A stretch of 64,000 nucleotides of DNA from Halogranum gelatinilyticum (lineage in GTDB: Archaea; Halobacteriota; Halobacteria; Halobacteriales; Haloferacaceae), in NCBI RefSeq assembly GCF_900103715.1, contig NZ_FNHL01000005.1, positions 62,001 through 126,000 of the forward strand, in the 5' to 3' direction. Of this stretch, positions 6,595-25,329 are shown one piece after another. Position 1 is the first letter of the stretch. Each line of letters starts with the position of its first letter. Both the position numbers and the translations under genes were made by a program. The notes beneath the pieces are model-generated. The model saw nothing but the letters and a program-made list of their open reading frames with translations, had not been told where the DNA came from and ran no database searches.

Positions 6595-6813
6595 ATGGAG
6601 GAATCGCCAGATGAGCGGTCTGAGACGTTATCACAGATTGACGAGGTTCTCTCCGTTCAGCAGCTCAATCAGCGTATCTCGGACGTCGTAGACATGTCCG
6701 AACTACTTCAGGATGTTCGCGTTATAGTGAATCACGAATCTCGGCAGGAACAATGCAGCCCTCTACTTCACTCTCATCGTCGGTACACGTGGATCTTAGA
6801 TGCTATTGGATAA
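6595..6813 (+). pseudogene. Frameshifted remnant of exonuclease VII large subunit (xseA) N-terminus
   Basis: The first 45 codons (EVLSVQQLNQRI...DVR) match the start of the intact xseA-like gene at 10019 (EVLSVSQLNDRI...GVR). Around 6725-6745 the spacing between matching DNA blocks differs by 2 bp, and the similarity then continues in another frame as NNAALYFTLIVG, equivalent to QNSTALYFTLTDG in the intact copy. The rest of the gene is missing. A TTTTATT box upstream survives. This is a decayed second copy that probably marks an older transfer module or a recombination scar. Confidence 0.85.
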
Positions 6814-8119: not shown

Positions 8120-8188
8120 ATCGGCAACAAACATCTCGGTGAGCAAATAATTTCTCCCAGTCAGAAGGTCCGAACAAGGCGGAACTGG

Positions 8189-9424: not shown

Positions 9425-9937
9425 ATGCCCCATTGCCCGAATTGCGGAAGCCGGGTCAAAGCAGTTCACCACTACTGCGGATCCTGTGGACAGGCGTTAT
9501 CCGATCTTGCAGAGTCGGAATCCGATCCACCGATGGCGGTAGATCGAGCAGGGTTCCTGTCGATGCGTTCGCTTTCCTACGTCAATGAGCTGGTGGGTGG
9601 AGAGCGAGAACTCGATCATGACTCAGTCTCTTACACGCAGTTATCTCGGGATATACGCGCTGCATTTGCTGATTTCGCTCGATTGGCGATGGTGACCGAT
9701 CTCGATCTTCTCCACCTATGGGCTGCTGGTTCGAACACGGATGCGCTGAGTATGTCCGTCGAGGACATGAACAGCAATCAGTTCCGGGACTGGCTTGCTG
9801 CCATTGGGCTGGGCCGAACTCTCCGGATGTACGATGATGCGCTCCACACCGAATTCGAGGACCAGTTCAACAACAGACTACAGAAACTGATTGAGGTCGC
9901 GAATGAGGAACTTGATGACGATGAGATCTCTGAGTAG
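9425..9937 (+). CDS. Zinc-ribbon protein of unknown function
   Basis: A 170-residue protein with an N-terminal treble-clef-like ribbon: CPNC at residues 4-7 and CGSC at 18-21. The remaining 145 residues are predicted mainly helical and acidic, with no motif I recognise. It lies between the CoiA-like genes (divergent) and the exonuclease VII pair on the same strand, 81 bp ahead of the latter, so it may be the first gene of the transfer module or an independent regulator. Confidence 0.7.
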   Translation: MPHCPNCGSRVKAVHHYCGSCGQALSDLAESESDPPMAVDRAGFLSMRSLSYVNELVGGERELDHDSVSYTQLSRDIRAAFADFARLAMVTDLDLLHLWAAGSNTDALSMSVEDMNSNQFRDWLAAIGLGRTLRMYDDALHTEFEDQFNNRLQKLIEVANEELDDDEISE

Positions 9938-10018
9938 TTCTATGCCACAAGAGCAGTGAGGTTTCGTATTCTCGAAGGTACCTTTTTGAGGGTTCTTGTC
10001 GGAAATTAGAAGACGTGT

Positions 10019-11068
10019 ATGACGGATGCACCGGATACCGAACGGCAGAGAGCTGAACCCGATACGAGAGAGGTCCTCAGCGTTTCACAACTGAACGACC
10101 GGATTGCGTCTGTCGTCGAGGAGGCGCCAGCTCTTCACGGTGTCCGCTGTATCGGAGAAGTCACTAACCTCCACCAGAACAGTACTGCGCTCTACTTCAC
10201 CCTCACCGACGGCAACGCCGAACTTCCCTGCATGATTTGGGCGAACCGCTACCGAAACATGGACGCCGACCTCGAGGACGGAACAGAGGTTATCCTCGAG
10301 GGCGATATCGACTACTGGACTGAAGGAGGGAAAATCGACCTCAAACCGTGGGAGATCAGGGTAGTCGGAGAAGGGGAACAGGCGGCCGCAGTCAAGCGAC
10401 TGGAAGCAGAACTAGCGGAACGTGGCTGGCTCGATGATGAACACAAGAAAGACCCACCGAGATTTCCTGACCGAGTCGGCGTCGTCACTTCCCTCCAAGG
10501 AGATGCACGATACGACATTCAGGACTCGGTCCACGGTCGAAACCCCACGATTGACCTCTTAATCAAGGATGCGAGCGTCCAGGGACCGAACGCGCCGACG
10601 TCACTCGCAAACGGAATCCACTATCTTGACCGCAACCAGGACGTCGATTCCATCATCGTGGGTCGAGGCGGCGGAAGCGACACCGACCTGATGGCGTTCA
10701 ACCACGAGGCTGTCGCAGAGGCCATCTTCACGTCTAACACCCCGGTTGTCGCCGCCGTCGGTCACGCAGAAGACCGGACAATAGCAGGACGCGTTGCAGA
10801 TCGAAACGCGATCACGCCGACCGACGCTGGGGAGTACGTTACTGCTGACGTGGAGCAGTTCCTCTCTGGCGAGGTGGACGGGCTAGAGCAAGAATTGGAA
10901 GCCGCCTACGAGTCGTTCAGGCGGGAGTTCGAACACGAAAAAGAACTGGAGCAAGCCGCTGCGGAGGCGGGTGGGCCACCAGGGATGAGCCCGGCCTACT
11001 ATAAGGCAATCATCGCGGTCCTCGTCGTGCTCCTGCTGGTCGTGGTCGGATTGTGGCTGTTCACGTAA
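10019..11068 (+). CDS. xseA: Exonuclease VII large subunit-like protein with C-terminal membrane anchor
   Basis: A 349-residue homologue of XseA. The N-terminal OB-fold part (about 15-115) begins EVLSVSQLN; the catalytic part carries GRGGGSDTDLMAFN (215-228) and AAVGHAEDRTIAGRVAD (245-261), the family signatures. Bacterial XseA is around 450 residues with a long coiled-coil C-terminus; here that region is short and ends in a hydrophobic segment (329-348) that should span the membrane, which is unusual. A TTTTT-containing box precedes the ATG by 30-38 bp. It is followed within 2 bp by xseB and then the secretion-like genes, suggesting processing of single-stranded DNA at the transfer machine. 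Confidence 0.88.
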   Translation: MTDAPDTERQRAEPDTREVLSVSQLNDRIASVVEEAPALHGVRCIGEVTNLHQNSTALYFTLTDGNAELPCMIWANRYRNMDADLEDGTEVILEGDIDYWTEGGKIDLKPWEIRVVGEGEQAAAVKRLEAELAERGWLDDEHKKDPPRFPDRVGVVTSLQGDARYDIQDSVHGRNPTIDLLIKDASVQGPNAPTSLANGIHYLDRNQDVDSIIVGRGGGSDTDLMAFNHEAVAEAIFTSNTPVVAAVGHAEDRTIAGRVADRNAITPTDAGEYVTADVEQFLSGEVDGLEQELEAAYESFRREFEHEKELEQAAAEAGGPPGMSPAYYKAIIAVLVVLLLVVVGLWLFT

Positions 11069-11070
11069 CC

Positions 11071-11253
11071 ATGGCTAAAGACACAGAGATTTCGGAGAAC
11101 GTCGTGCGAATCAACACACTCATAGAGCAGCTGGAAGCCGGTGACCATTCGAAATCCACTGGGGAGGAACTCTTCCAAGAGGGACAGGGTCGGCTTGCGA
11201 AGCTCCGCGAGCTCGTCAACGATGGGGATGGCGAGATCATCGAGCTGGACTGA
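11071..11253 (+). CDS. xseB: Exonuclease VII small subunit-like protein
   Basis: A 60-residue protein with the helical pattern of XseB: a first helix NVVRINTLIEQLEAGD and a second ELFQEGQGRLAKLREL, the two-helix hairpin that in bacteria wraps around the large subunit. The ATG at 11071 starts 2 bp after the xseA stop; an upstream in-frame GTG at 11053 is possible but would overlap xseA. Its position directly after xseA supports the call more than its short sequence does. Confidence 0.78.
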   Translation: MAKDTEISENVVRINTLIEQLEAGDHSKSTGEELFQEGQGRLAKLRELVNDGDGEIIELD

Positions 11254-11422: not shown

Positions 11423-11467
11423 ATGTACCACGACTCCGTTGGTGCATACCCATACTCGCACGTATGA
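11423..11467 (+). CDS. Possible 14-residue leader peptide
   Basis: ATG at 11423 encodes MYHDSVGAYPYSHV and stops in a TGA that overlaps the ATG of the next gene (ATGA at 11464-11467). The best TATA box in this gap is placed for a transcript starting exactly at this ATG, so the peptide would be the first translated item and could couple to the gene behind it. It is tiny and may have no function of its own; the call rests only on promoter spacing and overlap. Confidence 0.4.
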   Translation: MYHDSVGAYPYSHV

Positions 11468-11712
11468 TAACCCGGTCAGTCACCATCGAAGACATCGATG
11501 ACCTGTACCTGATGTGGAACGACCACATCAACGCCTCCGCCCTCTATCGCCGCGCTCTCCGGGAGGAAATGGAAGTCCGTGATGTTGACCCCGACGACCT
11601 CCGCACCCTCCTCGAACGGGCCCGCGAGCAGGGCTACACGAAAGAAGAAATCGCCGACGAGACCAACCGGTACGCCGATCTGAAGGCACTCGTCGAAGAC
11701 GCAGAGGAATAA
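11464..11712 (+). CDS. Small protein at head of the transfer operon
   Basis: An 82-residue protein. The first nine residues (MITRSVTIE) could form the strand of a ribbon-helix-helix-like or Phd/CopG-like regulator, and the rest is helical (ALYRRALREEMEVR, LRTLLERAREQGYTKEEIA). I do not recognise a named family. It is the first full gene behind the TATA box at 11394, followed 6 bp later by the pilin-like gene, so an autoregulator of the operon is a reasonable but unproven idea. Confidence 0.65.
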   Translation: MITRSVTIEDIDDLYLMWNDHINASALYRRALREEMEVRDVDPDDLRTLLERAREQGYTKEEIADETNRYADLKALVEDAEE

Positions 11713-11718
11713 CCCGCT

Positions 11719-12141
11719 ATGACACAGGACAGTACAACCTCCGAGACGTCTGAGAATCGTACTGACAATCAGTCCACGGTAGTGAGCAAGGTCCCCAGAC
11801 AAGCCGTTCTCACCGTCGCACTATTGACCCTGTTCGCTGTCCAACCCGCCGCAGCACAGACCAGCGCGGTCTGTAGTGCGGATAACCTCCCCAGCATGAT
11901 TGAGGGGTTCTTCCAGCTCACCACTGGACTCGGCATCGTCGGCCTTGCCGTGGTCTGGCAGGCTGACTCCCTCATCGAGATGTTCACCCTCAACCCCGAG
12001 CAGAAGAAGGGACTCAAGCGCCACAAGCGCTCTGCGATGAAGTCTGCCGTCGTCCTCGTCGTCCTCGGCCCGTTGTACACGGTTGCCGGGTCGATGATGG
12101 GCCTCCCGCTGGCGCAGTGTGTTGACCTCGTCCCCTGGTAA
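11719..12141 (+). CDS. Small membrane protein, VirB2/TrbC pilin-like
   Basis: A 140-residue protein: a polar N-terminus (1-30), a hydrophobic signal segment ending AAAQ (about 34-53), then two transmembrane helices (about 67-85 and 109-128) separated by a basic loop KKGLKRHKR. This layout (cleavable signal plus two helices with a short basic loop) is that of VirB2/TrbC-type conjugative pilins and of the small subunits of archaeal DNA-transfer pili. There is no sequence signature that proves it; the assignment leans on topology and on the VirB6- and VirB4-like genes that follow. Confidence 0.55.
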   Translation: MTQDSTTSETSENRTDNQSTVVSKVPRQAVLTVALLTLFAVQPAAAQTSAVCSADNLPSMIEGFFQLTTGLGIVGLAVVWQADSLIEMFTLNPEQKKGLKRHKRSAMKSAVVLVVLGPLYTVAGSMMGLPLAQCVDLVPW

Positions 12142-12170: not shown

Positions 12171-13907
12171 ATGGAACAACGAGAGCTCTCCGTGCTCATG
12201 GCCGTCCTGTTCGTGACGAGTCTAGTCACGGGTATCGTCACGGCAAGCCCACCACGGCCAGGTACGGAAGGAAATGGGCTTTCTGAGAACGAATCTGCGA
12301 CCCTCTGGTCTCGCGATGCGGATAACTACATCAGTCAAGAGGAGTACCGCCAGCGCTACGGTGACGAGCGGACCGCCATCCACCAGCTCGCGAATGGCAC
12401 GGATATAACGTTCAAACGGCCGCCCGCGACTGCCGCAACCTGGACCCGAAACGATTTCGAGGATCTCGACGCCGGTGACTCGGATACGTCCGTTCATCCG
12501 CCCCACGCCTCACTTGAGGATGGCGTGTTCATCGCGGATGCCCATGCAACCGTATTCGCGGTTCAGCCGTCGACGCGGGGCCACCTCGAGTCAGGCGAAA
12601 CCCCGCTCTACATCGCACCGAATGGGACGATGCGCGGGTTCGTCGATTACCGCGTCCGTGTTCCAAACGGGAGTTCCTCGGGAAACAGGACTGTCGAGTG
12701 GTCGCTTACGAACCACGAGATCGAGGAAGTTCGGCTGCAGAAAGACGGGGAAACCATCGCGAGGACCGATGGGTCGCACACGCCAGCCATCGACTACCAG
12801 ATCGACGACGACTGGAGTGCAACCCTCACACTTGAAGCAGAGATCCACGTCCGGCTGAAGAAGACGATACGGACGAACGTGGGGAACAGCACCGACGTCG
12901 ACGTCGTCTACCGTGAGGAGACACGAAACGTCTCGGACTCGATCGACGTCGAGATCTACGACCTCTCTGCGTACCCCTACTACGCCGAGTACCCCAACGG
13001 CGATGCTGGCGTTGCCATCTTCCAGTCTCGGCCGTGGCAAGGCTACACGCTCACCGACGAGGGGAACGCGAGCGTACGCGGTGTCTGGCGATTCTACACC
13101 GCCCGAAACACCAACTGGGACACGCTCGTCAGGTCGAATCGAACCGACAGCGCCGAAGTCGAGTCCGATGCACTCCCCGTGTACGTCCACGCGTATCCCT
13201 CCCGAATCGGCCCGCGTGCGGAACCCGTTCGCGACGGCCCGGAAATCATCGACACCTGGGGCACGGAACGTCCCTCTCCGCTGGGGACCATCGGCGAGAA
13301 TGTCAACATCGAGGTCGTCAACCAGTCCTACGAGACGACGTACGGTGTCGCCGTCCGTGCCGAGAACGTCGACAGAGAGGCACTCCACGTCGCGGGCATC
13401 GTCCGCGGTGTGAACGCATCTATCGTCGAGCCCGACGCCGGTTCCGAGCGGCAGCTTCGCCGCAGTAACCTCACGGTGGAGGTTCTTCAACAAAACCAGT
13501 CACAAGCGACACTCCGGATCGAACTGCGTGACAACCAGACTGGCGCACCGATCGTCCTCAACGACAGCGCCCGCCGGTATCCCATCGGGGGTAGCCCACG
13601 TGATGGCTACATCACCATCGCCAACCGGGAGGTCGAGACCAACGTCTCTGGCGTAGCCATCGTGACGATTACTGAACCCGGCATCTACACCGCCCGATAT
13701 CATCCGGGATCGTGGCTCGGACACAACCCAGCCTACGTGAGTGATACGGCGACCGCCAGGTGGCATCCACTCGGAACCATCGACGGCTGGTTCGCATTCA
13801 TCTTTGAGGTCGGCTGGCAGTTCATCCCCTTCTTCGTGATGTTCTACGCAGGGAGCCGTCTGCTCCGAATGCTCGGCCCAGAAGATATCTTCCAACGAGA
13901 TCCATGA
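12171..13907 (+). CDS. Large exported surface protein with C-terminal membrane helix
   Basis: A 578-residue protein with an N-terminal signal segment (about residues 8-24), a long extracellular part rich in D, N, T and beta-strand patterns with many N-glycosylation sequons, and one hydrophobic C-terminal segment (FIPFFVMFYAGSRLL) followed by a short cytoplasmic tail. No enzymatic motif is visible. It overlaps the next gene by 4 bp (ATGA). A cell-surface adhesin or pilus-associated protein of the transfer system is inferred from position. A 300-codon antisense frame here is a GC-bias shadow. Confidence 0.7.
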   Translation: MEQRELSVLMAVLFVTSLVTGIVTASPPRPGTEGNGLSENESATLWSRDADNYISQEEYRQRYGDERTAIHQLANGTDITFKRPPATAATWTRNDFEDLDAGDSDTSVHPPHASLEDGVFIADAHATVFAVQPSTRGHLESGETPLYIAPNGTMRGFVDYRVRVPNGSSSGNRTVEWSLTNHEIEEVRLQKDGETIARTDGSHTPAIDYQIDDDWSATLTLEAEIHVRLKKTIRTNVGNSTDVDVVYREETRNVSDSIDVEIYDLSAYPYYAEYPNGDAGVAIFQSRPWQGYTLTDEGNASVRGVWRFYTARNTNWDTLVRSNRTDSAEVESDALPVYVHAYPSRIGPRAEPVRDGPEIIDTWGTERPSPLGTIGENVNIEVVNQSYETTYGVAVRAENVDREALHVAGIVRGVNASIVEPDAGSERQLRRSNLTVEVLQQNQSQATLRIELRDNQTGAPIVLNDSARRYPIGGSPRDGYITIANREVETNVSGVAIVTITEPGIYTARYHPGSWLGHNPAYVSDTATARWHPLGTIDGWFAFIFEVGWQFIPFFVMFYAGSRLLRMLGPEDIFQRDP

Positions 13908-14740
13908 CCAGAAACCATCCACACATCAGTCGAAGAAACGCCCTCCGAACAGTTGCAGGCGCGGCGCTTGCAAGCGTGGCTGGCTGTCTGAACGACGGTG
14001 GAAGCTCCGGAACTCCCAGTGACGGGACAGCCACTACAAACAGCCAGGGGCCGCTCACGCGAGTCGCCGTCGAGGGCACAACGCTCGTCGTCGAGCTCTC
14101 GGCAGAAGCCGACGTCGACCAAGTCAACCTCATCCAGCCGAACGGAGAGCTATTCGGAAAGCGTGACGTGGCTGCAGGGGCCCAGCAGGTCTCATTCGAG
14201 ATCGGAACCGCATACGAGCCCGGAGAGTACCGCCTAGTTGCACTGAAAGGGGAGGAGACAGTCGCTGAAAGCACGACAGATATCGAACCGGAAATCCTGA
14301 TTCAGGACGTTGGACTCTACCGAAACAATCCCGGCAAACCGTGGGATGAAATCTACGGAGACACAGAGACAGACCGGTTGAAGAATGGCGAAGCGTTCGT
14401 TACCGTATCAAACGCTGGCACAGGCCCAGATGCGATTGTTGAGCTCGTGTTCTCTGGAGATGTTCCGAACCCCATCGAAGATCCTCGGGGAAGCGGGATG
14501 TACGAAACAGAGCAAGTGGTTGTTGCCCCTGGAGAGACAGTAGATCTCTTCAGCAATTCGTTCCCCTTTGGCTCAGAGTCTGAGAAAGGAATGGGGTGTT
14601 CGCCTGGCGGAAATAGCGGACAATTCACCGTTCTCGTTGAGACAAGGGCCAACGGGAACGAGATTACGAAAGCGTTCGATGTGGAGTACTCTGGATCTGA
14701 GGAGATGAGTGATTGTGAGGTCGCAATCACGGAGGCCTGA
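13904..14740 (+). CDS. Tat-exported lipoprotein of the transfer operon
   Basis: A 278-residue protein starting with SRRNALRT (twin arginine) and a hydrophobic stretch ending in the lipobox SVAGC at about residue 27, followed by a Gly/Ser/Thr-rich linker. This is the standard haloarchaeal Tat lipoprotein design, so it should sit on the outer face of the membrane. The mature part looks beta-rich with two Ig-like halves and no catalytic motif. It is coupled to the surface protein upstream (ATGA) and lies 2 bp before the VirB6-like gene. Confidence 0.75.
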   Translation: MTRNHPHISRRNALRTVAGAALASVAGCLNDGGSSGTPSDGTATTNSQGPLTRVAVEGTTLVVELSAEADVDQVNLIQPNGELFGKRDVAAGAQQVSFEIGTAYEPGEYRLVALKGEETVAESTTDIEPEILIQDVGLYRNNPGKPWDEIYGDTETDRLKNGEAFVTVSNAGTGPDAIVELVFSGDVPNPIEDPRGSGMYETEQVVVAPGETVDLFSNSFPFGSESEKGMGCSPGGNSGQFTVLVETRANGNEITKAFDVEYSGSEEMSDCEVAITEA

Positions 14741-14742
14741 CG

Positions 14743-15804
14743 ATGGTTGACTTGATCGACGTCGTACTGGAAGGGTTCAAAGACGTCGTTGAGTGGGTTA
14801 TCGGTCTCTTCATGGATGGACTCCGGTCAGGGTATCAGACCCTGACTGAGGCGATGTTTGGTACACCAACGCCACAGACTGATGGAACGTTCATCTTCGG
14901 TGACCCAAGCAATGCACCGTGGCCAGCGATTCAGGATGGACTCGTTGGTGGCGAGATCATGCTCATTGCTCTACTCCTGCTCGTAATGAGCGTACAGGGC
15001 CGCCATACCATTCGAATATTCAACGTGGGCAGTGCCTACGAAGCCCGAAAGACCAAGAAAACTGCATGGGTCGGTGCTTTCCTTATCATCACATGGTACT
15101 GGATCGGCGCTCTCACCCTGTACCTTGTAGATGGGTTCACCATTGCCCTAATGCCCGATCTCTCCTCGGTATCTGCAGCGATGCTACGGTTCTTAGGCGT
15201 CTCTATTACCAATCCAGGTCTGGGGCTATTATTCGCCCTCTCTGGTGGTATCTCGATGTGGGCTTTGGAAGCCCTCTTCTACATTCGCAAGATCCTGCTC
15301 TACGTCTACCTGTACGGAATGCCGATTGCGTTTGCGCTAGCCTATGGAAATATACCCGTCATTTCTGATATCGCGATGGGTTTCGCCAAGCGATTTGTTC
15401 CTTTGGCTGTCCTGCCACTTCCAGCAGCAATGGTACTCAAAGGATACGACCTCATCTATGCTGGTGGCTCGCTAACGCCGGGTACCGCGTTTCTAAAGTA
15501 CCTTGTTGCTGCGTCTCTCCCGCTCGTCGCACTCTATGTGACCTGGAAGACGTTCAAGTACGCGACTCCGCTGACTGCAAAGGTCGTCGGAGGCGCGACG
15601 AAGGGGGCGGCACTCATCGGTGGAGTCGCAGCGGGTGCGTACGTCGGTGGCGCTGGCGTCGCGACGACCGCGGCCCGTTGGGGACCAAAGGCAGCTGCTG
15701 GTCACGCTGTCGCGCAGAAAGCCGCAGCTCGAGGAGAGAGTAGTGACGACGAGAACAGTACGCCGTCGTACCGGCGGACCGAGAACGACCCTGGAATCTA
15801 CTAA
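14743..15804 (+). CDS. Polytopic membrane protein, VirB6/TrbL/CedA-like
   Basis: A 353-residue protein with about seven hydrophobic segments: around residues 66-83, 103-125, 130-150, 155-185, 185-215, 216-240 and 250-268, then an Ala/Gly-rich tail ending in a charged segment. This matches the VirB6/TrbL topology and the archaeal CedA-type inner channel component. The tail (KVVGGATKGAALIGG) is typical of TrbL-like C-termini. The call is by topology and neighbours, not by a signature. Confidence 0.6.
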   Translation: MVDLIDVVLEGFKDVVEWVIGLFMDGLRSGYQTLTEAMFGTPTPQTDGTFIFGDPSNAPWPAIQDGLVGGEIMLIALLLLVMSVQGRHTIRIFNVGSAYEARKTKKTAWVGAFLIITWYWIGALTLYLVDGFTIALMPDLSSVSAAMLRFLGVSITNPGLGLLFALSGGISMWALEALFYIRKILLYVYLYGMPIAFALAYGNIPVISDIAMGFAKRFVPLAVLPLPAAMVLKGYDLIYAGGSLTPGTAFLKYLVAASLPLVALYVTWKTFKYATPLTAKVVGGATKGAALIGGVAAGAYVGGAGVATTAARWGPKAAAGHAVAQKAAARGESSDDENSTPSYRRTENDPGIY

Positions 15805-15810
15805 GCACCC

Positions 15811-16932
15811 ATGTCGATGGATCAAGACGCAGCCGCACGGCGCATCATGGACCAGTTCGGTGAAGAGAGTCGAATCCCCTACCTCAACATCGAGGAGGGG
15901 GACGTCGGCGTGCTCATTGCCTTCCCGATTATTGGGCTGTTCGTCGCTGGTCTCACCGGAATCGAATCGCTCGCCCTCCCGTTCGTCGCGGGAGGATTCG
16001 GGTTTGGCGTTGCCGTTATCTACGTCTCTCCCGACCACCTGAACGCGTGGACGTGGACGAAGGACGTCTATCGCTACGCCAAGCGTCCGCGAGTCACGTT
16101 CAGTGCTCCAGAAGAACCCGATAGTACCACGAACGAGACAGAGCGAAACGAGGGCGGGCTTGCGAACTACACGCCATTCAAACCAGATGAGCGAACGCAG
16201 GACCTCACAAACGTCAAGCGGGCGTGGCCCGGTGCTGGAGCGATCCAGCGGGCAGACGGAACGATGGAAGCGTTCATCGAGATCGACCCGGGGAACATGG
16301 ACTTCGCCATGTCCGACGACTGGGCACAGCTCCAGGAGGCGGGTGAAGAGTTCGGCAACAAGGAACTCGATTCGAAGCTCAAACTCCACGCGACAACCCG
16401 GTCATTTCCGGTGGAACAAATCACCCAAACAATTGAGGAACGGCTCAACGACGAGGACGTCAAGCAGAACCCGATCTTCCGGGAACTCCTCGAAGAGTAT
16501 CGTGAGACGCGTCCCAAAGAGATGCGTGACCGAGGTATCCAACAGGTCCGCTACTACATCGGCGTCGAGGTCACGCCGCTCGAAGTCTACGACAGATACC
16601 GAGACGAAGGTACACCTGCCGAGAAACTGACGCAGTTCCCCGTCATCGGGTTCCTGTTCAACCCGTTCGTGACCCGCCGTGAGGACCTCACGGATGTCGA
16701 GCGGCGGGCGCAGATGTTCGAGAAGCTGGACAGCCGCGTCAACGACGTTCGCGCCGAGTTTATCCAGCAGGCCTCTGGCTGGTCTGCTCGTCGGCTCAGT
16801 ACGGTCGAGCTGTTCGTCCTGAACATGGACTTCTGGAACGGGAGAGAGCACGACTACGACGAAGCAGAGCGTGTTGTTCGCGAGCAACCGATTATCGGCC
16901 ACTCGCGCCGGGAGGATGAGACCAATGCGTAA
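15811..16932 (+). CDS. PrgI/VirB3-like membrane protein fused to VirB4 N-domain-like part
   Basis: A 373-residue protein with two close membrane helices near the N-terminus (about residues 33-50 and 55-72), the PrgI/VirB3 hairpin layout, followed by a soluble domain with a pattern like the N-terminal domain of VirB4 proteins (FIEIDPGNMDFA, HATTRSFPVEQ, VRYYIGVEV). There is no P-loop; the ATPase is the next gene. Its last codons overlap the VirB4 start. It probably anchors VirB4 to the membrane. Confidence 0.6.
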   Translation: MSMDQDAAARRIMDQFGEESRIPYLNIEEGDVGVLIAFPIIGLFVAGLTGIESLALPFVAGGFGFGVAVIYVSPDHLNAWTWTKDVYRYAKRPRVTFSAPEEPDSTTNETERNEGGLANYTPFKPDERTQDLTNVKRAWPGAGAIQRADGTMEAFIEIDPGNMDFAMSDDWAQLQEAGEEFGNKELDSKLKLHATTRSFPVEQITQTIEERLNDEDVKQNPIFRELLEEYRETRPKEMRDRGIQQVRYYIGVEVTPLEVYDRYRDEGTPAEKLTQFPVIGFLFNPFVTRREDLTDVERRAQMFEKLDSRVNDVRAEFIQQASGWSARRLSTVELFVLNMDFWNGREHDYDEAERVVREQPIIGHSRREDETNA

Positions 16933-19132
16933 CGTCGTCCTGCAGGCGGGGAGTGGGCCCTTCACCCAGCTCACAGAGTGGCTGCTGAATCCAACGTCGC
17001 CCGAAGGTGCGGCGATTTACCTCCTGTTGGTTGTGGTCCTCGGAGTCGTCGGGAAACTCCTCTGGGACCGCCACACCGCCGACGAGGAACCCGAAGTCGA
17101 CTTCTCGGACGTCCTCGACGAGGAGACGCTCGAAGAGGGGCACGCAGAAGGCCAGCTCCTCGACGACATCTCCGAGTCCCACAAGACGGTGACCGCGCCG
17201 GCAGCCATCGAGTGGGAGACACGAGCCGCTCGGGTTGGCGAGCAGTGGACGACGACGCTGTACATCGCTGACTACGCCGACTACCCGAACGACGGGTATC
17301 TGAGCGATCTCTTCGAGTTGACCGACGTCGAGTTCGACCTCACAGCGCACATCACCCCGAAGAACCAACAGCGTGCGCGGAACGAACTGCAGGACATCGC
17401 TGACGACCTCCAGGTTGACGCGGATCTGGAACAGAGTGTCCGTAGTGCGTACCTCCAAGAGCGAGCGAACGAAGCCGCTGCGACGTACAAGGCCGTCGAG
17501 AGTGGTGCGAACGTCTTCGACCAGGGGATGTTCGTCACGGTTCGCGCCGACGACAAGGACGACCTCAGGGACTCAGTCCAGAAGGTCAAGAGTGCGCTCC
17601 GCGACGACCCGGCAAACCTCACGCCGAAGACTGCAATCTGTCGGCAGGACCTCGCACTACAGTCGGCTGCACCCATCGGAGACAACGAATTCGGGCGCGA
17701 GTCAATCGCCCTTGGTGGGGCTGTCGGCGCACTCCTTTCGTCGCCCCATAACGCGACCATCCTCGAAGAGGGCGGGGTCGAGTTCGGGATCCACAAGGAC
17801 AACCAGAGTCCGGTCGTCATCGACCCGTTCGCCCGTGACAACGGGTATGCGATGTTCACCGTTGGCGATACCGGGTCTGGGAAGTCGTTCGGCTCGAAAC
17901 AGAACTTCATCCGCTCTATCGAGCAGAGCAAGGACCGCATCGGCATCATCCTCGAACCGCTCAACAACTGGGCAGGCGTCTCCGAAGCCCTCGGAGCGAA
18001 ACGCATCACGGTCGGTGGGACGCTCGGGCTGAATCCCCTGGAGATTCGCCAGACGCCCGACCACGTCCAGCGAGCGATGGGCGAGGACGCGAGCCCGTTC
18101 AACGAGAAGCTCGACGACGCCATGAGCTTCCTGACGAACTTCTTCGCACTGCGCGGTATCTCGCTCGGTGACCGCCGGACGACGCTCGAACTCGGCCTCA
18201 AACGCGCCTACAAGCGCAACGACATCACCGACGATATCTCGACGCACAGCAACCCCAGTCCGACCATCCGAGACATGATGGACGTCTTCGAGGACATGGT
18301 CGACGATCCAGAGTCGTTCGTGGTTCGGTCCGACGAGGAGGCCAGGAAGATCCGCGAAGACGCGACGTGGCTTCTCGACCAGCTTCGCCCCTTCGAGGAT
18401 GAGGGTCGCCACGCCAATCTCGGGAAGTCCTCCGAGTTCGACATCCGTGACGAGAAGGTCATCTACCTCGACCTTGCACAGCAGGAGGGCAGCGTCGACA
18501 GCAGCACGGCGCTGACGATGCAGTTGCTCATCTCGCTCGTGTACGAGCGGGCGAAGGAGACTGACAAGGAGGTCGTGTTCGTCATCGACGAGGCGCGGTA
18601 CATCATGCAGGACGCCGCGAGTCTGGCGTTCCTCGAGACGGTGTTCCGCCATCACCGCCATCACGACCTCTCAATTCGTCTCGTCACGCAGACTGTCGAC
18701 GAGTTCTTCGAGCACGCCGAATCCGAAGCCATCCTCGATCAGTGTGCAGTCAAGCAGTTCCATCGTCTGGACGGGATGGACGACCAGTGGGCCGACGAGT
18801 TCGGGCTGAATTACGCCCAGATGCGCTACGTGCAGGACGCGGTCCCCGGGAACGAGGATGCTGGCTTCTCCGAGGCGCTCGTCGGCGTCGACGGCGAATG
18901 GCGCGGCATCAAGGTCGAGGCGATGCCCAAGGAGAAGCAAGTCATCGACTTCGACCCAACCACACAGGTACGGTCTTCACTCCCCGGCGCTGGCGAGGAA
19001 GCAGTCGACACGGATGTACAGCAGTTCCGTGAGGAGCTGGAACAGCAGGCCACGAACGGACAGTCGAAAGAAGCCGAACCCGCCTCTGCGAAACCAGATG
19101 GCGGGGCGATGGAGGGGGAGGACGATGCGTGA
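16925..19132 (+). CDS. virB4: VirB4-family conjugative transfer ATPase
   Basis: A 735-residue ATPase. One membrane helix near residues 28-46, an N-terminal VirB4 domain (50-290), then Walker A GDTGSGKS (about 313-320) and Walker B VVFVIDEA (about 549-556), with a downstream RLVTQTVDEFF segment equivalent to the conserved Gln motif. The ATG at 16925 has a GGAGG ribosome-binding site 9 bp upstream and overlaps the preceding stop by 8 bp; an ATG at 16916 is the alternative. VirB4 energises pilus assembly and substrate transfer, so this gene marks the module as a type IV secretion-like DNA transfer system. It overlaps the next gene by 8 bp. Confidence 0.88.
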   Translation: MRNVVLQAGSGPFTQLTEWLLNPTSPEGAAIYLLLVVVLGVVGKLLWDRHTADEEPEVDFSDVLDEETLEEGHAEGQLLDDISESHKTVTAPAAIEWETRAARVGEQWTTTLYIADYADYPNDGYLSDLFELTDVEFDLTAHITPKNQQRARNELQDIADDLQVDADLEQSVRSAYLQERANEAAATYKAVESGANVFDQGMFVTVRADDKDDLRDSVQKVKSALRDDPANLTPKTAICRQDLALQSAAPIGDNEFGRESIALGGAVGALLSSPHNATILEEGGVEFGIHKDNQSPVVIDPFARDNGYAMFTVGDTGSGKSFGSKQNFIRSIEQSKDRIGIILEPLNNWAGVSEALGAKRITVGGTLGLNPLEIRQTPDHVQRAMGEDASPFNEKLDDAMSFLTNFFALRGISLGDRRTTLELGLKRAYKRNDITDDISTHSNPSPTIRDMMDVFEDMVDDPESFVVRSDEEARKIREDATWLLDQLRPFEDEGRHANLGKSSEFDIRDEKVIYLDLAQQEGSVDSSTALTMQLLISLVYERAKETDKEVVFVIDEARYIMQDAASLAFLETVFRHHRHHDLSIRLVTQTVDEFFEHAESEAILDQCAVKQFHRLDGMDDQWADEFGLNYAQMRYVQDAVPGNEDAGFSEALVGVDGEWRGIKVEAMPKEKQVIDFDPTTQVRSSLPGAGEEAVDTDVQQFREELEQQATNGQSKEAEPASAKPDGGAMEGEDDA

Positions 19133-22100
19133 ATATCTCCGAGTCACGCCAACGTCTGAAGAGCTTGAGCCCGAGGGAATCCCTCGAGTCCTCGAAAGCC
19201 TGCACAAACTGACGACGGCAGAGTCGACGGGACTCGCGCAGAAGCTGAACCCACTCCACAGTAAGACACCGCCACGGTTCGAGTTTCTCGCATTAAGTGA
19301 GGGAGCGGACGACCCTGTCGAGTTCTTCTACGGCGTCGACGAGCATCTCGATACACTGGAAAAACGGCTCCGTTCGATCTACCCCGAGACGTTCGACATC
19401 GAGCGTGTCGACGTCGACGTGGCCGCTCGGCTCATCCAACCAGTCGAATTCACACGAGCTGAGTTCATCGAACACTACGAAACAGGGCATCTGCAGTACG
19501 AATTCAGCCCCGACGAGCAGTACGAACTTGACAGTGAGGACCGTGACCAAGACCAAGCGGCGGCGACTGAAGCCTCCCCATTTGCAGATGGAGGTGCCAC
19601 AATCGATGCTTCCCCTGGTCACTTCGTCGAGGTCGGTGAGACCGCCCTCAAGCTCGCACCACCGAGCGCAATCCCGGACGAGAAGCCACTGACGACGCTC
19701 GAAAAACCAACCGAGACGGATGAGGGAACGATTCTCGCTCGGCCCACCATCGACGCCGTCTCGCCAGTTGGCGTGCGCTGGTCCGGTTCAGCCACCCGGA
19801 AGAAAGACTGGATGACGTCGTTGACGCCCTTCGCCGCTGGCGATGGCGACGACGGGTTAGTGGCTGTCGACCAGCCCGGTGCGACACTGGCGTCACTAGT
19901 GGACCACCTGATGGAGGCAGCCTCACCCGTGGCGTTTCAGGTCGTGTTCCAGCGACGGGCGAGCTGGCAGTCCGACGCAGAGGTCAGAAAAGAGGATCTC
20001 GTCGACGGCCGGGACACTTTCTTCCAGGAGGTCGTGGGCTCTTTCCTCGAGGTCGAAGACCAGCGGAGCGAGCACGACGAGAAACAGCTCAGCGAGTCAG
20101 TCGCCAAGCGCATCGAGTACATCGACGCGAAGAACCCTAAGCGGTCGTACACTGCCAACATCAGGGCAATCGGTGTTCCGACCGGCGACGAATCGCACGA
20201 CGAACTCGCGGCCCAGATGAACTCACTTCGTCCCGTGTTCGACCCGGTTGACGGCCCCTATTACGAAGTCGAGGGAGAACGACTCCGTGCTGGTGGCTTC
20301 CGAGAAAAGACGAAGGACAAGAACGCCCGGACTGCCCTCCGGAGGCTACTTGATCGAGAGATTACGACCGGGAGAGGCAAGACCCGGCCTGATTTCGTCC
20401 TCAGTGGAACGGAACTCGCGAATTTCGTCTTGGTTCCTTCCTCCAAGCAACTCACAGTAGAAGGGACACGCGGAACTCGCGCTGAACAGCAAAGCCGGAA
20501 CCCGCTTCCATGGCCCAATCCGGACCTGGTTCAACAGTTTCAGGAGGGGATGGCGATTGGGTATGCGCTCGATGAGAACGGAGCTCCCCAACCGGACCCG
20601 ATTCGGATTCCGCCCAAGCTCTTGACGACGCACTACGGCCGGTTCGCCTCGACCGGCGGCGGGAAATCGAAGGCAATCATCAACGATGCGCTGTCCCTTC
20701 GTGAGACGACCGGTGGCCCCGTCGTGGTCGTCGATCCGAAAGGCGACGGCATGTGTGCCAACTACCTTCGCTGTCACTACGAACGCTTCAGCGGGTTGGA
20801 CGATGTCTACCAGTTCCGCGTCCCGGAGACTGTCCCCGCGTTCTCCTTCTTCGACATCCGGCCCGCGCTCGAAGCCGGGCGAAACCGTGAGGACGCGATT
20901 CAGGACAAGGTCGACCACTTCCACGACATCCTGCGGATGATTATGGGCCGTGAGCAGTACGGGCAAGCGTTCGTCGCGAACGAGATCCTCAGCTACCTTA
21001 TCAAGGCCCTCTTCGACGAGGAGTACGGGAGCGACGTTTTCGGCCTGGACGACCTCTTCGCGGCAGCCCTCCGGATGCAGCGAGAGCGGACTGTTCCGCC
21101 GGTTTCGGCGGCCAACAGGAACGTCGAGGAGTCGCTCACACGGCACTTCGCGAAGGACGACCACCGGTTTCAAGTGTCGATGGACGCCGTCGGGAACCGC
21201 CTCGATAAGCTCAGAGAGGACGCACACCTGCGACGGATCTTCAGCCACGTTCCGGAGCAGGACGAGACCGGAGAGTACGTTGACAACCGATTCGACTTCC
21301 GCGACTTCCTCGACGAAGACGCCACGATTCTGTTCGACTTGGGAGACCTCCGTCCGGAGGCACAGCGAGCGATCACACTCCTCCTGTTGAGTAACCTCTG
21401 GGACGCAGTGCAGGTGCGTCGACGTGACGGGAACACGGACTACGAGAATCTCACCAACCTCATCATCGAGGAGGCGGCCCCCGTCGCATCAACGAAACTC
21501 GTTTCCGAGCAGTTGCTTCCACAGGGACGGTCCTTCGGCCTGAGCATGGGACTGGTGATGCAGTTCCCCGGCCAGGTCCGAAATCGGAGCGAACGCGCCT
21601 ACGACGAGGTCCTCAACAACATCAAGACGAAGCTCATCGGGAACATCTCCATCGAGCGCGACCTCGCAGAGTCGCTGGCCCACGAAGACTTGAGCCCGAC
21701 CGACCTCAGAAATCGGATCAACACGCTCCCCAGCGGGGAGTGGATCGCCCAACTCCCGAGTCCGTCATTCGGGGAGACAGGTCCGGCCCCGTTCTCGGTG
21801 AAGCCGCTCCCGATAGCAGCCGGCCATCCAGAGAGCGACGAGCCGCTCTCTGTCGAACAGGAGGACCACTTCGAGACCGTGGCCCTCCCACGGCTTTCGG
21901 AGCGAACACAGGCCCAGTATGGGCTTGCTGAGGCCACCGAATCGGAGACAGCCGAAGACGAGGGCTGGGGAAGTAGACCGAACGACGAAGGTTCGACATC
22001 CGCAGACTCGACTTGCCCTACGGACTCGGCGCAGTCGTCGTTCATCGGACAGGCAACCAGTGGTTCGGCAGCCGATGAAGAGAAGAAAGAGAAAAGCGCG

Positions 22101-22940
22101 GACACCACCACCTCGCTGTTTGGCGATTCCGGGGCAACTGAGCCGGAAGAACCAGTCAGTGAAGAAGTGGAGCCAGATGTCGAAGAGAATGAGTCGTCAC
22201 CAGTACAGGCAGGTGGTGTAACCGTTACAGATGACGAACTCCAGCGGCGCGGGCTCACGCACGACGACATCCGATTCCTAACCCGCATTCTCGACGTGAT
22301 GAATGGTGACGCACCAAATCACAGACTCTTGGATTCAATGAGTTCGTTCAAGAGCGACTTTGAGGATCTGGATGTGCACCGGCTCGTCGAGCAAGACCTA
22401 CTGGAGGAAGGACGAGCGTGTGGTCGGAAGTACTACACTGTCCTCCCGGCAGGGCGTGAACTCCTCGGTCAGAAGCTCAAGGTCGGTCCTGGTCAGGGAG
22501 ATGTCGGTGAGAAGACGCCGCACAAGGTCGGTGTGAAGCTGCTCGAACTGTGGTTAGACTCCCGCGACGACGTCGCACAGGTCGAGCCGTACTACGAGTA
22601 CGATGAAGAGACGGTGTTCGACGTTGTCGGTCTCGATGCTGACGGGGAACTCGTGTGGGTCGGTGAAGCCGAACTCGCGAGTAACAACAAACACGCGCCG
22701 GTCGACGACTACGACAAGCAGAGCACGGTGGACGCGAACGCTGTCTGGGCGTTCAACAGACGCGAGACGGCCGTCGAGGTGTTGGACCGTCTCGCAGAGG
22801 CCGACCGGATAGAAAGCAGCGTGAGCGGGCGTGCAGCCCGCTCGTTCTCGGACATTCGAGAGGCCGTTGAATCGTTCGATGCAGCTGGGCTGACGACGAT
22901 TCGGAGCTTCAACAAACTCGACCAGGAGTTCAACACATGA
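19125..22940 (+). CDS. Large HerA/TraG-like coupling ATPase with C-terminal extension
   Basis: A 1271-residue protein. Residues 1-480 are an unrecognised acidic domain; Walker A STGGGKSK sits near 508-515 and a VVVVDPKGDG Walker-type strand follows. The ATPase part ends near 900. A low-complexity acidic linker (about 920-1030) leads to a C-terminal part with a winged-helix-like segment and then KVGVKLLELWL, FDVVGLDADG and WVGEAEL, whose D...ExE spacing recalls restriction-fold nucleases. The ATG at 19125 overlaps virB4 by 8 bp; a longer frame back to 18858 is antisense-like and rejected. It probably brings DNA to the VirB4 channel. Confidence 0.78.
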   Translation: MREYLRVTPTSEELEPEGIPRVLESLHKLTTAESTGLAQKLNPLHSKTPPRFEFLALSEGADDPVEFFYGVDEHLDTLEKRLRSIYPETFDIERVDVDVAARLIQPVEFTRAEFIEHYETGHLQYEFSPDEQYELDSEDRDQDQAAATEASPFADGGATIDASPGHFVEVGETALKLAPPSAIPDEKPLTTLEKPTETDEGTILARPTIDAVSPVGVRWSGSATRKKDWMTSLTPFAAGDGDDGLVAVDQPGATLASLVDHLMEAASPVAFQVVFQRRASWQSDAEVRKEDLVDGRDTFFQEVVGSFLEVEDQRSEHDEKQLSESVAKRIEYIDAKNPKRSYTANIRAIGVPTGDESHDELAAQMNSLRPVFDPVDGPYYEVEGERLRAGGFREKTKDKNARTALRRLLDREITTGRGKTRPDFVLSGTELANFVLVPSSKQLTVEGTRGTRAEQQSRNPLPWPNPDLVQQFQEGMAIGYALDENGAPQPDPIRIPPKLLTTHYGRFASTGGGKSKAIINDALSLRETTGGPVVVVDPKGDGMCANYLRCHYERFSGLDDVYQFRVPETVPAFSFFDIRPALEAGRNREDAIQDKVDHFHDILRMIMGREQYGQAFVANEILSYLIKALFDEEYGSDVFGLDDLFAAALRMQRERTVPPVSAANRNVEESLTRHFAKDDHRFQVSMDAVGNRLDKLREDAHLRRIFSHVPEQDETGEYVDNRFDFRDFLDEDATILFDLGDLRPEAQRAITLLLLSNLWDAVQVRRRDGNTDYENLTNLIIEEAAPVASTKLVSEQLLPQGRSFGLSMGLVMQFPGQVRNRSERAYDEVLNNIKTKLIGNISIERDLAESLAHEDLSPTDLRNRINTLPSGEWIAQLPSPSFGETGPAPFSVKPLPIAAGHPESDEPLSVEQEDHFETVALPRLSERTQAQYGLAEATESETAEDEGWGSRPNDEGSTSADSTCPTDSAQSSFIGQATSGSAADEEKKEKSADTTTSLFGDSGATEPEEPVSEEVEPDVEENESSPVQAGGVTVTDDELQRRGLTHDDIRFLTRILDVMNGDAPNHRLLDSMSSFKSDFEDLDVHRLVEQDLLEEGRACGRKYYTVLPAGRELLGQKLKVGPGQGDVGEKTPHKVGVKLLELWLDSRDDVAQVEPYYEYDEETVFDVVGLDADGELVWVGEAELASNNKHAPVDDYDKQSTVDANAVWAFNRRETAVEVLDRLAEADRIESSVSGRAARSFSDIREAVESFDAAGLTTIRSFNKLDQEFNT

Positions 22941-23821
22941 CGTGGCGCCACGCAACCCGCGAGGAGATCTACAGGTACTACACAGAGGAGTTCCCCTCGT
23001 ACGTCGACGAACTCCCGTCGTTCATCACCGCGAAGGGGCCGAAACAGTACGCACTCGCGTTTCAGGAGCCACACCCGGTACGGAAAGACGGAGTCCCAGA
23101 CAAGGACTTCATCCGTCGAGACACGTGGCAGACGAACGTCTCAGGTGACCGAACCACGGCAGCGTTCCACGACTTCGGCGACGTCCTCGAGTTCATCCAC
23201 CATCCAGCACGGAACGACCCACTCGGGCGGAACGACTTCGCACTCGCCGATCCTGATCTGCTCGACAAACCAGACCCGCGTCCTGATGCGGTCTACTACG
23301 CCCTCGATCACTGGGAACGACCGTGGGTGCTCCTCATCGATATCGACGCGAAAACGATAGCCCGAGAGCGAGCAGCACAAACTGTCTCAGATGAGGATGC
23401 TACGGAAGACAGCGAGGAATTACTCGATGCCGCGGGTATTCTCGACGCAGAGCCAGCAGGCTACCCGTATTCCTTCGAGGATATCGAACGGGCCATCGAG
23501 TACGGTTTCGAGGTGCGGGACATCTTCGAGGACGACTTCAACGCCGAAGAGACGATGGTAGTGTACACCGGTCAGGGCGTTCACGTCTACCTCCTTGACA
23601 GCGATCCCGCCCATCGGTACGACGCCAAGAGTCGAGAAGTGCTGAACGACCTTCTGCAAGACACCTACGAGATTCCCATCGACCCAGTGGTCACCGCCGA
23701 CCGGCGTCGGGTCGCCCGGCTCCCCTACTCGTTGCACGCTGACGTCTGTAGTATCGTCACGCCCATCGAGAGCCCGAACTTCGACGTTCGGTCTGCGACA
23801 CCGGAGGTGGTTAAGGAATGA
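22937..23821 (+). CDS. Archaeo-eukaryotic primase small subunit-like (PriS)
   Basis: A 294-residue protein with the catalytic pattern of PriS: LLIDIDAK (132-139, acids D135 and D137), TGQGVHVY (211-218, replacing the usual SGxxGxH), and DPVVTADRRR...RLPYSLH (249-267, third acid D249 and the conserved R-P-S-L-H). It overlaps the coupling ATPase by 4 bp and the next gene by 4 bp (ATGA). It should make primers on the transferred single strand. Chromosomal PriS is longer, so this is a divergent, element-borne version. Confidence 0.82.
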   Translation: MTWRHATREEIYRYYTEEFPSYVDELPSFITAKGPKQYALAFQEPHPVRKDGVPDKDFIRRDTWQTNVSGDRTTAAFHDFGDVLEFIHHPARNDPLGRNDFALADPDLLDKPDPRPDAVYYALDHWERPWVLLIDIDAKTIARERAAQTVSDEDATEDSEELLDAAGILDAEPAGYPYSFEDIERAIEYGFEVRDIFEDDFNAEETMVVYTGQGVHVYLLDSDPAHRYDAKSREVLNDLLQDTYEIPIDPVVTADRRRVARLPYSLHADVCSIVTPIESPNFDVRSATPEVVKE

Positions 23822-25329
23822 CTCAGTCGACGCCTGTCGAGGACGAGCGTACCGCCTATCGCGTTGCGACGCTCCCGCTCGAATATGGGACGACCCGCAT
23901 CAACCAGCTGTTCACGCGCGGCTACAATCGCTACATCGTCGACGGCGAAGAGCAACCAGAAGATTTGTTGAACGATCTCGAGCGATTCGGGACGGCGGCG
24001 TTCAAAGAAGACGTCAGAGCCAACGCCACAGAGGAACCCTTCGTCGACGAGCCCGGAACGCTCGCCGTTCTCGCGACGTTGAGTGCTATCTGCGTCAAGG
24101 CACACCCGAAGTTCGAACACGCCCCACCGCGAACGGTGCAGGTCCTCTACGATATTCGCGAACTCTACGTCAACAATCTCGCCTCTCTCCTTCGAGAATT
24201 CGGTGATGGGAGTCTCCAACAGGATATCGCAGAGGTTCTGTACGCGAAAGACCCCGGAGAGGACGGACCACACCCCGGTCGCGTTTGTACAGGGATCAAA
24301 GAGATGCCCGAGTTCGGTGACGGATTGTATCTCGAAATCCCGATGGCCGCAGCATCGAGGAAGTGCCTTGTTCACGCCGATACTGAGACCGGAGAAGCCG
24401 AGGAACTGCTCACTCGCGTCGAGAACAACTGCCTCTATGTGCCCGTCGGTGATTTCGACACGAAGTATCGCGAGTACGCCAGACGTGCGTTCAAGAAGCT
24501 CCTGCGGGTCCAGGAGGAGAACCTCTCTGAAGACCAGCTGACGTGGCTAACGACGAATGAGTCGGCCATCACAGAGCGTATCGACCGCTTCATCGAGACG
24601 GGACACCACGAACGGATCTGGCGAGATTGGAATCCCGGTGAACGGACCTTCCGTGTACTCCGGGATGCGATTCGAGACGCTCCAGACGAGGTCGTCTCAC
24701 TGGGAGAGTTCCACTCGGCGAAAGAACTGTTTGAAGCAGTAGAGGCGTACGATCCGGAAGCGAGCTGGAAGCGAGATGTGTGTAATCGCATCTCGAGTCC
24801 TCGGAGTCTCGGGAACCTTCTCGCATCCCAGCGGGACCACCGGAGTCTGACCATTCGAGAGCACAGAAATACGAACCACTATCGGATTCAGGAGTCTTCG
24901 CGTGGCGTCCAGCCCCTCGACGTCGAGGCAATCGAAGACCTGTTCGAGCTTCCCTGTATGGCGAATATGGCCGAGCGCCTCCACGAGAAGAAGCCTGTCC
25001 GAAAGGACCTGTACAACTTCGCCCGGATGGTGATGTGGCTGCCCCAGTACCAGGATAGTGACCTCGAGACGATTGTCGCAGACCTCAAGGACGTCTTCTC
25101 GCGGTGGCCCTGGTACGACGAACAGGTCACCGATTACCAGATTCGCTACGAGTTCTCGAACACCATTGGAGGCGACACCCCGCTTCCGATGAACTGCGAC
25201 AATGACGATATGCAGCGGTACTGCATCGGCCAGGAGCAGTGCCCCTACTCGATCTGGGGGAGCCTTCCCTTCCCGGATGAGATGTATGACCAACTGGATG
25301 AAGACGGCCCTACGGGAGAGGAATTCTAG
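23818..25329 (+). CDS. Primase large subunit-like (PriL) with C-terminal Fe-S domain
   Basis: A 503-residue protein. The N-terminal 370 residues are helical and hard to place, but the C-terminus has four cysteines near positions 380 (LPCMANM), 460 (MNCDN), 469 (YCIG) and 475 (QCPYS), with a DYQIRYEF segment between the first two. This order and spacing is that of the 4Fe-4S domain of archaeal and eukaryotic PriL. Coupled to PriS by ATGA, so the two make a heterodimeric primase. It ends the long co-directional gene set. Confidence 0.78.
   Translation: MTQSTPVEDERTAYRVATLPLEYGTTRINQLFTRGYNRYIVDGEEQPEDLLNDLERFGTAAFKEDVRANATEEPFVDEPGTLAVLATLSAICVKAHPKFEHAPPRTVQVLYDIRELYVNNLASLLREFGDGSLQQDIAEVLYAKDPGEDGPHPGRVCTGIKEMPEFGDGLYLEIPMAAASRKCLVHADTETGEAEELLTRVENNCLYVPVGDFDTKYREYARRAFKKLLRVQEENLSEDQLTWLTTNESAITERIDRFIETGHHERIWRDWNPGERTFRVLRDAIRDAPDEVVSLGEFHSAKELFEAVEAYDPEASWKRDVCNRISSPRSLGNLLASQRDHRSLTIREHRNTNHYRIQESSRGVQPLDVEAIEDLFELPCMANMAERLHEKKPVRKDLYNFARMVMWLPQYQDSDLETIVADLKDVFSRWPWYDEQVTDYQIRYEFSNTIGGDTPLPMNCDNDDMQRYCIGQEQCPYSIWGSLPFPDEMYDQLDEDGPTGEEF

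Follow-up and report, generated by a model that had tools for sequence, protein, structure and literature searches.

What would an exonuclease VII with a predicted membrane anchor do at the head of an archaeal operon that resembles a conjugation machine? The locus that raises this question lies in a window of 64,000 bases, which takes up positions 62001-126000 of C5, a contig of 214.8 kb in a haloarchaeal genome of 3.77 Mb. Its xseA gene (10019..11068, plus strand) encodes an exonuclease VII large subunit of 349 residues, as judged from Pfam and NCBIfam profiles, PDB 8txr, an AlphaFold2 model and the catalytic residues. Matches to PF02601 (Exonuc_VII_L, 6.6e-51) and to the OB-fold family PF13742 (5e-20) both exceed the curated cut-offs, the NCBIfam xseA equivalog is matched at 283 bits against a cut-off of 180, and the E. 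coli enzyme in PDB 8txr, an entry titled ExoVII(H238A), is the top structure match both by sequence (1.1e-42) and by fold. A profile search of the genome returned no other protein above the PF02601 cut-off. Residues D155, R205, H238 and D241 of E. coli XseA align with D166, R216, H249 and D252 of the window protein (an offset of 11), and these four residues are the same in all 33 XseA sequences, from haloarchaea and bacteria, that were aligned. We take the four E. coli positions to be catalytic, from a list that reportedly goes back to Poleszak in 2012. The family matches and the invariance of the four residues bear out the catalytic motifs that an earlier note on this DNA had picked out.

The remainder of the protein departs from the standard plan of XseA, in which the coiled coil is followed by a short C-terminal domain (PMC5684230). 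From its N-terminus, the window protein comprises an OB-fold (residues ~42-118), the nuclease core (~152-274), a coiled coil that is present but short, at about 40 residues (278-317), a hinge and a transmembrane helix (325-348). In the AlphaFold2 model (mean pLDDT 87, with the hinge at ~318-324 at low confidence) this last helix is distinct from that of the coiled coil and coincides with a hydrophobic stretch; the 19 residues from 330 to 348 have a mean hydropathy of 3.27, and the codons of the helical end (residues 325-349) occupy 10991..11065 on the plus strand. Domain comparison and the model agree that the usual C-terminal domain is gone and that the transmembrane helix stands in its place. 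The protein is accordingly a structural variant of the exonuclease VII large subunit and no standard member. The helix proposed earlier as a replacement for a long coiled-coil tail is thus predicted here as well, but the coiled coil is shortened and it is the C-terminal domain that has been lost. By prediction the layout is that of a tail anchor, with one transmembrane helix at the extreme C-terminus and the soluble domain N-terminal to it. The basic residues before the helix and the 0-5 residues that follow it suggest that the tail would insert in the membrane and leave the enzyme domain on the cytoplasmic side.

Directly behind xseA lies an open reading frame that opens at a GTG (11053) and probably starts at the ATG at 11071, giving an xseB-like product of 60 residues (11071..11253, plus strand). 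The matching small subunit reported in the earlier note is supported by the conservation of the gene behind xseA and by the xseB annotation that its counterparts in this position carry in relatives; taken alone, the product matches PF02609 (E 0.075) and TIGR01280 (E 0.009) only below the curated cut-offs.

The membrane tail proves to be a property of a lineage. In a sample of public genomes, the haloarchaeal XseA proteins have a membrane helix 0-5 residues from the C-terminus, with one exception (L122) that looks frameshifted, and the terminal helix was found in none of the bacterial or Woesearchaeal XseA of that sample. Nor was it present in a second sample, of 29 XseA drawn from the best-scoring genomes of the same phylum outside the haloarchaeal order, which keep the usual C-terminal domain (0/29); the helix as a general archaeal trait is thereby ruled out. 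A single group in the tree (SH-aLRT 99) takes in the tail-anchored proteins. Three genomes of the haloarchaeal order (L014, L015 and L018) encode a bacterial-type XseA with a normal C-terminal domain and no helix, and these fall outside the group. The distance from core to helix varies within it: this stalk measures 62-64 residues in the clade linked to type IV secretion systems (T4SS), as against 84-222 in the other tail-anchored proteins, and a value of 185 in the short-stalk set belongs to a row truncated by its contig, most likely L129. As most haloarchaeal XseA with the helix have no T4SS nearby, the helix as a transfer-specific trait is ruled out too, and the tail therefore evolved before or apart from the link to transfer. 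The anchor, on this sequence evidence, appears to be a haloarchaeal variant of exonuclease VII that is by itself uninformative on transfer. The earlier note had read the helix as a sign of transfer, which is not borne out, and had called exonuclease VII mainly bacterial, which needs correction, given that PF02601 occurs in 161 of the 295 genomes that were examined in this archaeal phylum. It had also raised the prospect of homologues without the helix in the same setting; a search for them showed the helix in all intact T4SS-linked copies. Our search of the open-access literature found no paper on a membrane tail of XseA or on xseA in haloarchaeal transfer.

The operon itself starts with xseAB (10019) and closes with a primase pair (to 25329), all on the plus strand. 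Behind xseB come a conserved gene for a protein we call p82 (11464..11712); a conserved small membrane protein, possibly a VirB2/TrbC-like pilin, whose weak match to PF04956 (E 0.035) is not significant (11719..12141); p578, a large exported or membrane protein conserved in both main T4SS types (12171..13907); a conserved putative lipoprotein with a twin-arginine and lipobox-like start (13904..14740); a VirB6/TrbL-like (TrbL_3) membrane channel protein (14743..15804; PF19590, 5.1e-136); and p373, a conserved membrane protein that matches no family and stands just before VirB4, presumably in the position of VirB3 (15811..16932). A VirB4-like ATPase follows (16934..19132, start approximate; PF03135 at 22.6 bits, cut-off 21), which VirB4-like NCBIfam models match at 1e-38, below the equivalog cut-off, and then a VirD4/HerA-like coupling ATPase (19107..22940, start approximate) with a weak HerA match (PF01935, 1.6e-4). 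Its type II homologue, 41% identical, matches T4SS-DNA_transf (PF02534) above the cut-off. The last two genes encode a PriS-like DNA primase (22937..23821; TIGR00335 at 8e-8, below the equivalog cut-off, with a relative annotated as DNA primase) and a primase-associated protein (23818..25329; NF038197, 6.4e-259). Because a type II VirD4-like protein (L049:27998-32368) carries a C-terminal Pox_D5 match of the primase-helicase type, a primase-linked component may be present in T4SS of both main types. With VirB6, VirB4-like and HerA/VirD4-like components and the primase pair downstream, the description of xseAB as the head of a conjugation-like operon stands.

At the front of the operon, 28 nt before the xseA ATG, lies a conserved, putatively promoter-like element of BRE/TATA type, TCGAAGGTACCTTTTTGAG (9972..9990, plus strand), which is conserved in an alignment of xseA upstream regions from both main T4SS types. 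An oriT-like element upstream of xseA was considered and set aside, as the conserved stretch there resembles a promoter. A zinc-ribbon gene precedes it in the window (9425..9937, plus strand); at other loci (L049, L050, L188, L200, L203, L204) a histone-like ORF of 55 residues with a weak DUF1931/CBFD match, with or without a gene for TATA-binding protein, stands directly before xseA.

Further upstream, a 52-nt repeat (6732-6783 and 10161-10212, 75% identical) and the protein sequence mark the 5' end of a second, remnant xseA copy (6595..6813, plus strand, 72 residues). Similar 5' fragments are scattered in several genomes (L200-L206), often keeping the upstream histone-like or zinc-ribbon gene, and the one in L205 adjoins what is left of a VirD4 gene, as if T4SS genes had been deleted. 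The window also encodes three similar cysteine-containing proteins (5396-6541, 6896-8146 and 8189-9274) with no Pfam family above the cut-off, which we take to be perhaps CoiA-like; two of the three genes are likewise found upstream of xseA in L202. A SNF2-type helicase (2344-4101), for which PADLOC reports matches to the DISARM DrmD and BREX BrxH models, is flanked by AAA-type proteins (390-2252 and 4058-5275), and the three may form a defence island. On the same contig, a gene with a borderline match to ArdC-like ssDNA-binding (anti-restriction) proteins lies at C5:26661-26900 (L250), and plasmid pNG600 has an annotated ArdC-like gene.

T4SS genes lie downstream, on the same strand and within 16 kb, at 37 of 42 loci of this XseA clade, counting loci that are partly non-independent. 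The other five are L066 and L184, which are copies of one contig end, L050, where the record wraps, L198, where the T4SS is ~13 kb away, and L210, a truncated xseA without a T4SS. Among 78 other haloarchaeal and bacterial XseA loci, T4SS genes lie downstream in one (L105), and its standing as an independent second capture is weakened by an opposite-strand Orc1/Cdc6-like gene and others that intervene. The linkage recurs in dozens of haloarchaeal plasmids, and the gene order of the window in many; xseAB is thus found together with virB4 in other haloarchaeal elements, the check that the earlier note had proposed. The T4SS-linked clade is monophyletic (SH-aLRT 100) and nested in the tail-anchored haloarchaeal XseA. 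It occurs with three T4SS types, the third in Halorussus halobius (L188), although T4SS proteins are only ~30-40% identical between types. Type I systems are mostly 80-98% identical to that of the window and type II systems ~26-41%, while XseA is ~68-82% identical to the window's on type I and type II alike. In the XseA tree the type II copies are nested within those of type I and are themselves interspersed with a few of the latter, though the inner branches are short. From the three T4SS types and the partly mixed type I and II copies it follows that the cassette has been kept, or re-acquired, at the operon head.

The same comparisons show that xseAB comes and goes. It is missing from many type I operons, including ones whose VirB4 is 91-98% identical, and the genome studied here has two more T4SS operons without it (C6:104900-107041, VirB4 94%; C4:103004-105010, VirB4 74%). 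Some operons without xseAB retain only xseB, the histone-like ORF or a broken xseA; because such operons were deliberately sampled, their number is no frequency. No substitute nuclease was seen in the xseAB slot of those inspected, and the content of the slot varies. Since closely related T4SS operons often lack it, xseAB appears from its distribution to be accessory and dispensable, and no core transfer gene. The dN/dS of 0.05-0.21 between intact xseA copies indicates purifying selection on the enzyme.

An accessory distribution bears directly on whether this is simply a lineage-specific exonuclease VII for the ordinary repair of ssDNA ends and adducts, which owes its place in the operon to chance or to general plasmid maintenance. 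The full catalytic core would suit such a task, bacterial exonuclease VII contributes to the repair of DNA and to quinolone tolerance (PMC5684230), and other tail-anchored xseAB pairs lie near Orc1/Cdc6 replication genes. However, PF02601 is matched in 60 of 170 haloarchaeal genomes of the family, most of which have no XseA at all, so that the gene is accessory and not housekeeping, and the strict position at the T4SS head would be left unexplained. We regard repair or housekeeping as an unlikely explanation.

The module has also moved as a unit. Up to 20.8 kb of xseAB plus type II T4SS is 100% identical across contigs of five species from three families, namely Haloarcula japonica, Haloarcula amylovorans, Halorussus marinus, Halorussus halobius and Halosegnis rubeus, which carry 20-20.8 kb of it (L161, L166, L167, L168, L169). 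Of this identical module, 14.4 kb is found as well in pNG600 of Haloarcula marismortui and in a Halobaculum roseum plasmid, two plasmids that are only ~85% identical in another part (NC_006394.1 versus NZ_CP082289.1). Such identity suggests that the module has moved very recently, although contamination between assemblies or laboratory transfer is a possible alternative explanation. In PLSDB, MOB-suite typing classes the xseAB-T4SS plasmids as non-mobilizable, a weak call, because the typing relies on known relaxases.

How such elements would obtain ssDNA without a relaxase is the point at which a nuclease becomes of interest. Profile searches of this genome found neither MobA-type (PF03432) nor TrwC-type (PF08751) relaxases; the PF13814 relaxase profile matched nothing anywhere it was searched and is thus uninformative for this genome. 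The absence of the first two agrees with what is described for archaeal conjugative elements, which have no recognisable relaxase and would have to obtain their ssDNA in a different way, NurA-HerA having been proposed as the source in the Ced/Ted systems (PMC9905601). One might then propose that XseA itself makes or matures the ssDNA moved by the T4SS. Exonuclease VII enzymes, however, degrade ssDNA and do not nick at one site, and many near-identical T4SS operons lack xseAB with no other conserved nuclease seen in the slot. We consider a relaxase or resection substitute very improbable: as xseAB is dispensable, XseA probably does not make the transferred strand, and it more likely trims ssDNA, removes displaced strands or guards against rival DNA.

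Protection would be the whole function if XseAB were a gatekeeper, a membrane-anchored nuclease that degrades foreign ssDNA from rival plasmids or viruses on entry and stands at the operon head for co-expression rather than for any need of the transfer process. Its optional presence in T4SS operons would fit, as would the related tail-anchored XseAB on plasmids without a nearby T4SS, some of them near CRISPR, Piwi or restriction genes, and the one T4SS-linked copy near BREX genes. Yet a single XseA clade is fixed at the operon head in three T4SS types, neither XseA nor XseB is matched by a defence model in PADLOC, and an ssDNA nuclease at the point of entry would also endanger the plasmid's own incoming strand. 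We judge it rather unlikely overall, though it is the main rival and close to the transfer reading.

We favor, with a probability of about one half, the reading of xseAB as a tail-anchored, cytoplasm-facing ssDNA nuclease module that trims ssDNA at a T4SS for which no relaxase was recognised. The OB-fold and nuclease core of XseA would lie in the cytoplasm, where a stalk of ~62-64 residues and one C-terminal helix would keep them near the membrane's inner face, with the small subunit seated along the stalk. Working at the T4SS base, XseA would cut or trim ssDNA, whether displaced strands, ends or flaps, that arises while plasmid DNA leaves or enters the cell, and synthesis of the complementary strand would be primed by the primase encoded at the opposite end of the operon. 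That a single T4SS operon should encode both an ssDNA nuclease and a primase fits ssDNA transfer; we infer the single-stranded form of the transferred DNA, the nuclease activity and the role in transfer. The linkage of the clade to predicted T4SS of three types suggests the connection to transfer, on genomic grounds. In its favor are the conservation of the promoter-like element across T4SS types, the low dN/dS, the primase pair that ends the operon, the Pox_D5 match on type II VirD4, the ArdC-like genes on this contig (a borderline match) and on pNG600, the movement of the module between genera, and the lack of MobA-type and TrwC-type relaxases in this genome; against it, xseAB is optional, several copies are broken and the tail also occurs without a T4SS nearby. 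A role in transfer for this accessory module is therefore best described as plausible. Of the earlier proposal of ssDNA processing at the membrane during transfer, the conserved T4SS linkage and its plausibility survive, while the argument from the helix fails and xseAB proves accessory. It is possible, and we suggest it only tentatively, that one plasmid lineage recruited a haloarchaeal tail-anchored exonuclease VII to process ssDNA at the membrane in relaxase-less conjugation, acting together with the operon's archaeal primase.

The window proteins can be set against several known systems. With E. coli exonuclease VII (PDB 8txr) XseA shares the OB-fold, the D/R/H/D nuclease core, the coiled coil and a putative small-subunit partner; it differs in its missing C-terminal domain, its terminal membrane helix and short stalk, and its place in an operon on a plasmid, with the xseB-like gene directly behind. 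The remaining haloarchaeal XseAB, whether encoded on plasmids or on chromosomes (~30-53% identical), share the tail-anchor helix, an adjoining XseB and an accessory distribution, but have longer stalks and no T4SS operon, and some lie beside ADP-ribosylglycohydrolase or Orc1/Cdc6 genes. On two Halorubrum plasmids (L212:9042-11614 and L213:9036-11608) tail-anchored xseAB stands directly behind an ADP-ribosylglycohydrolase gene, and a gene of this type is likewise near xseAB in L051 and L216. Bacterial conjugative T4SS also have a single operon for their VirB6/TrbL, VirB4 and VirD4/HerA-like components, whereas the window operon has no recognised relaxase in its genome and adds a nuclease and an archaeal-type primase. 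The Ced/Ted systems of archaeal DNA import (PMC9905601, PMC11868833) have related archaeal T4SS cores and a proposed nuclease-based source of ssDNA; the present system differs in being plasmid-borne, in its VirD4-like ATPase and in having exonuclease VII instead of NurA-HerA. Fusexin-bearing integrated haloarchaeal elements (PMC9259645) likewise carry VirB4, VirD4/TraG and HerA-like genes on mobile DNA, and the main text of that report makes no mention of XseA.

A membrane-tethered exonuclease VII, seen only in haloarchaea among the XseA samples examined and in no bacterial or methanogen-class sequence among them, is unusual for an otherwise soluble repair enzyme. The occurrence of an ssDNA nuclease and a primase at opposite ends of one T4SS operon, on plasmids of many culturable haloarchaea, would make it genetically testable whether DNA is transferred as a single strand, which bears on how conjugation-like systems of archaea produce and process the DNA they move when they have no known relaxase (PMC9905601).
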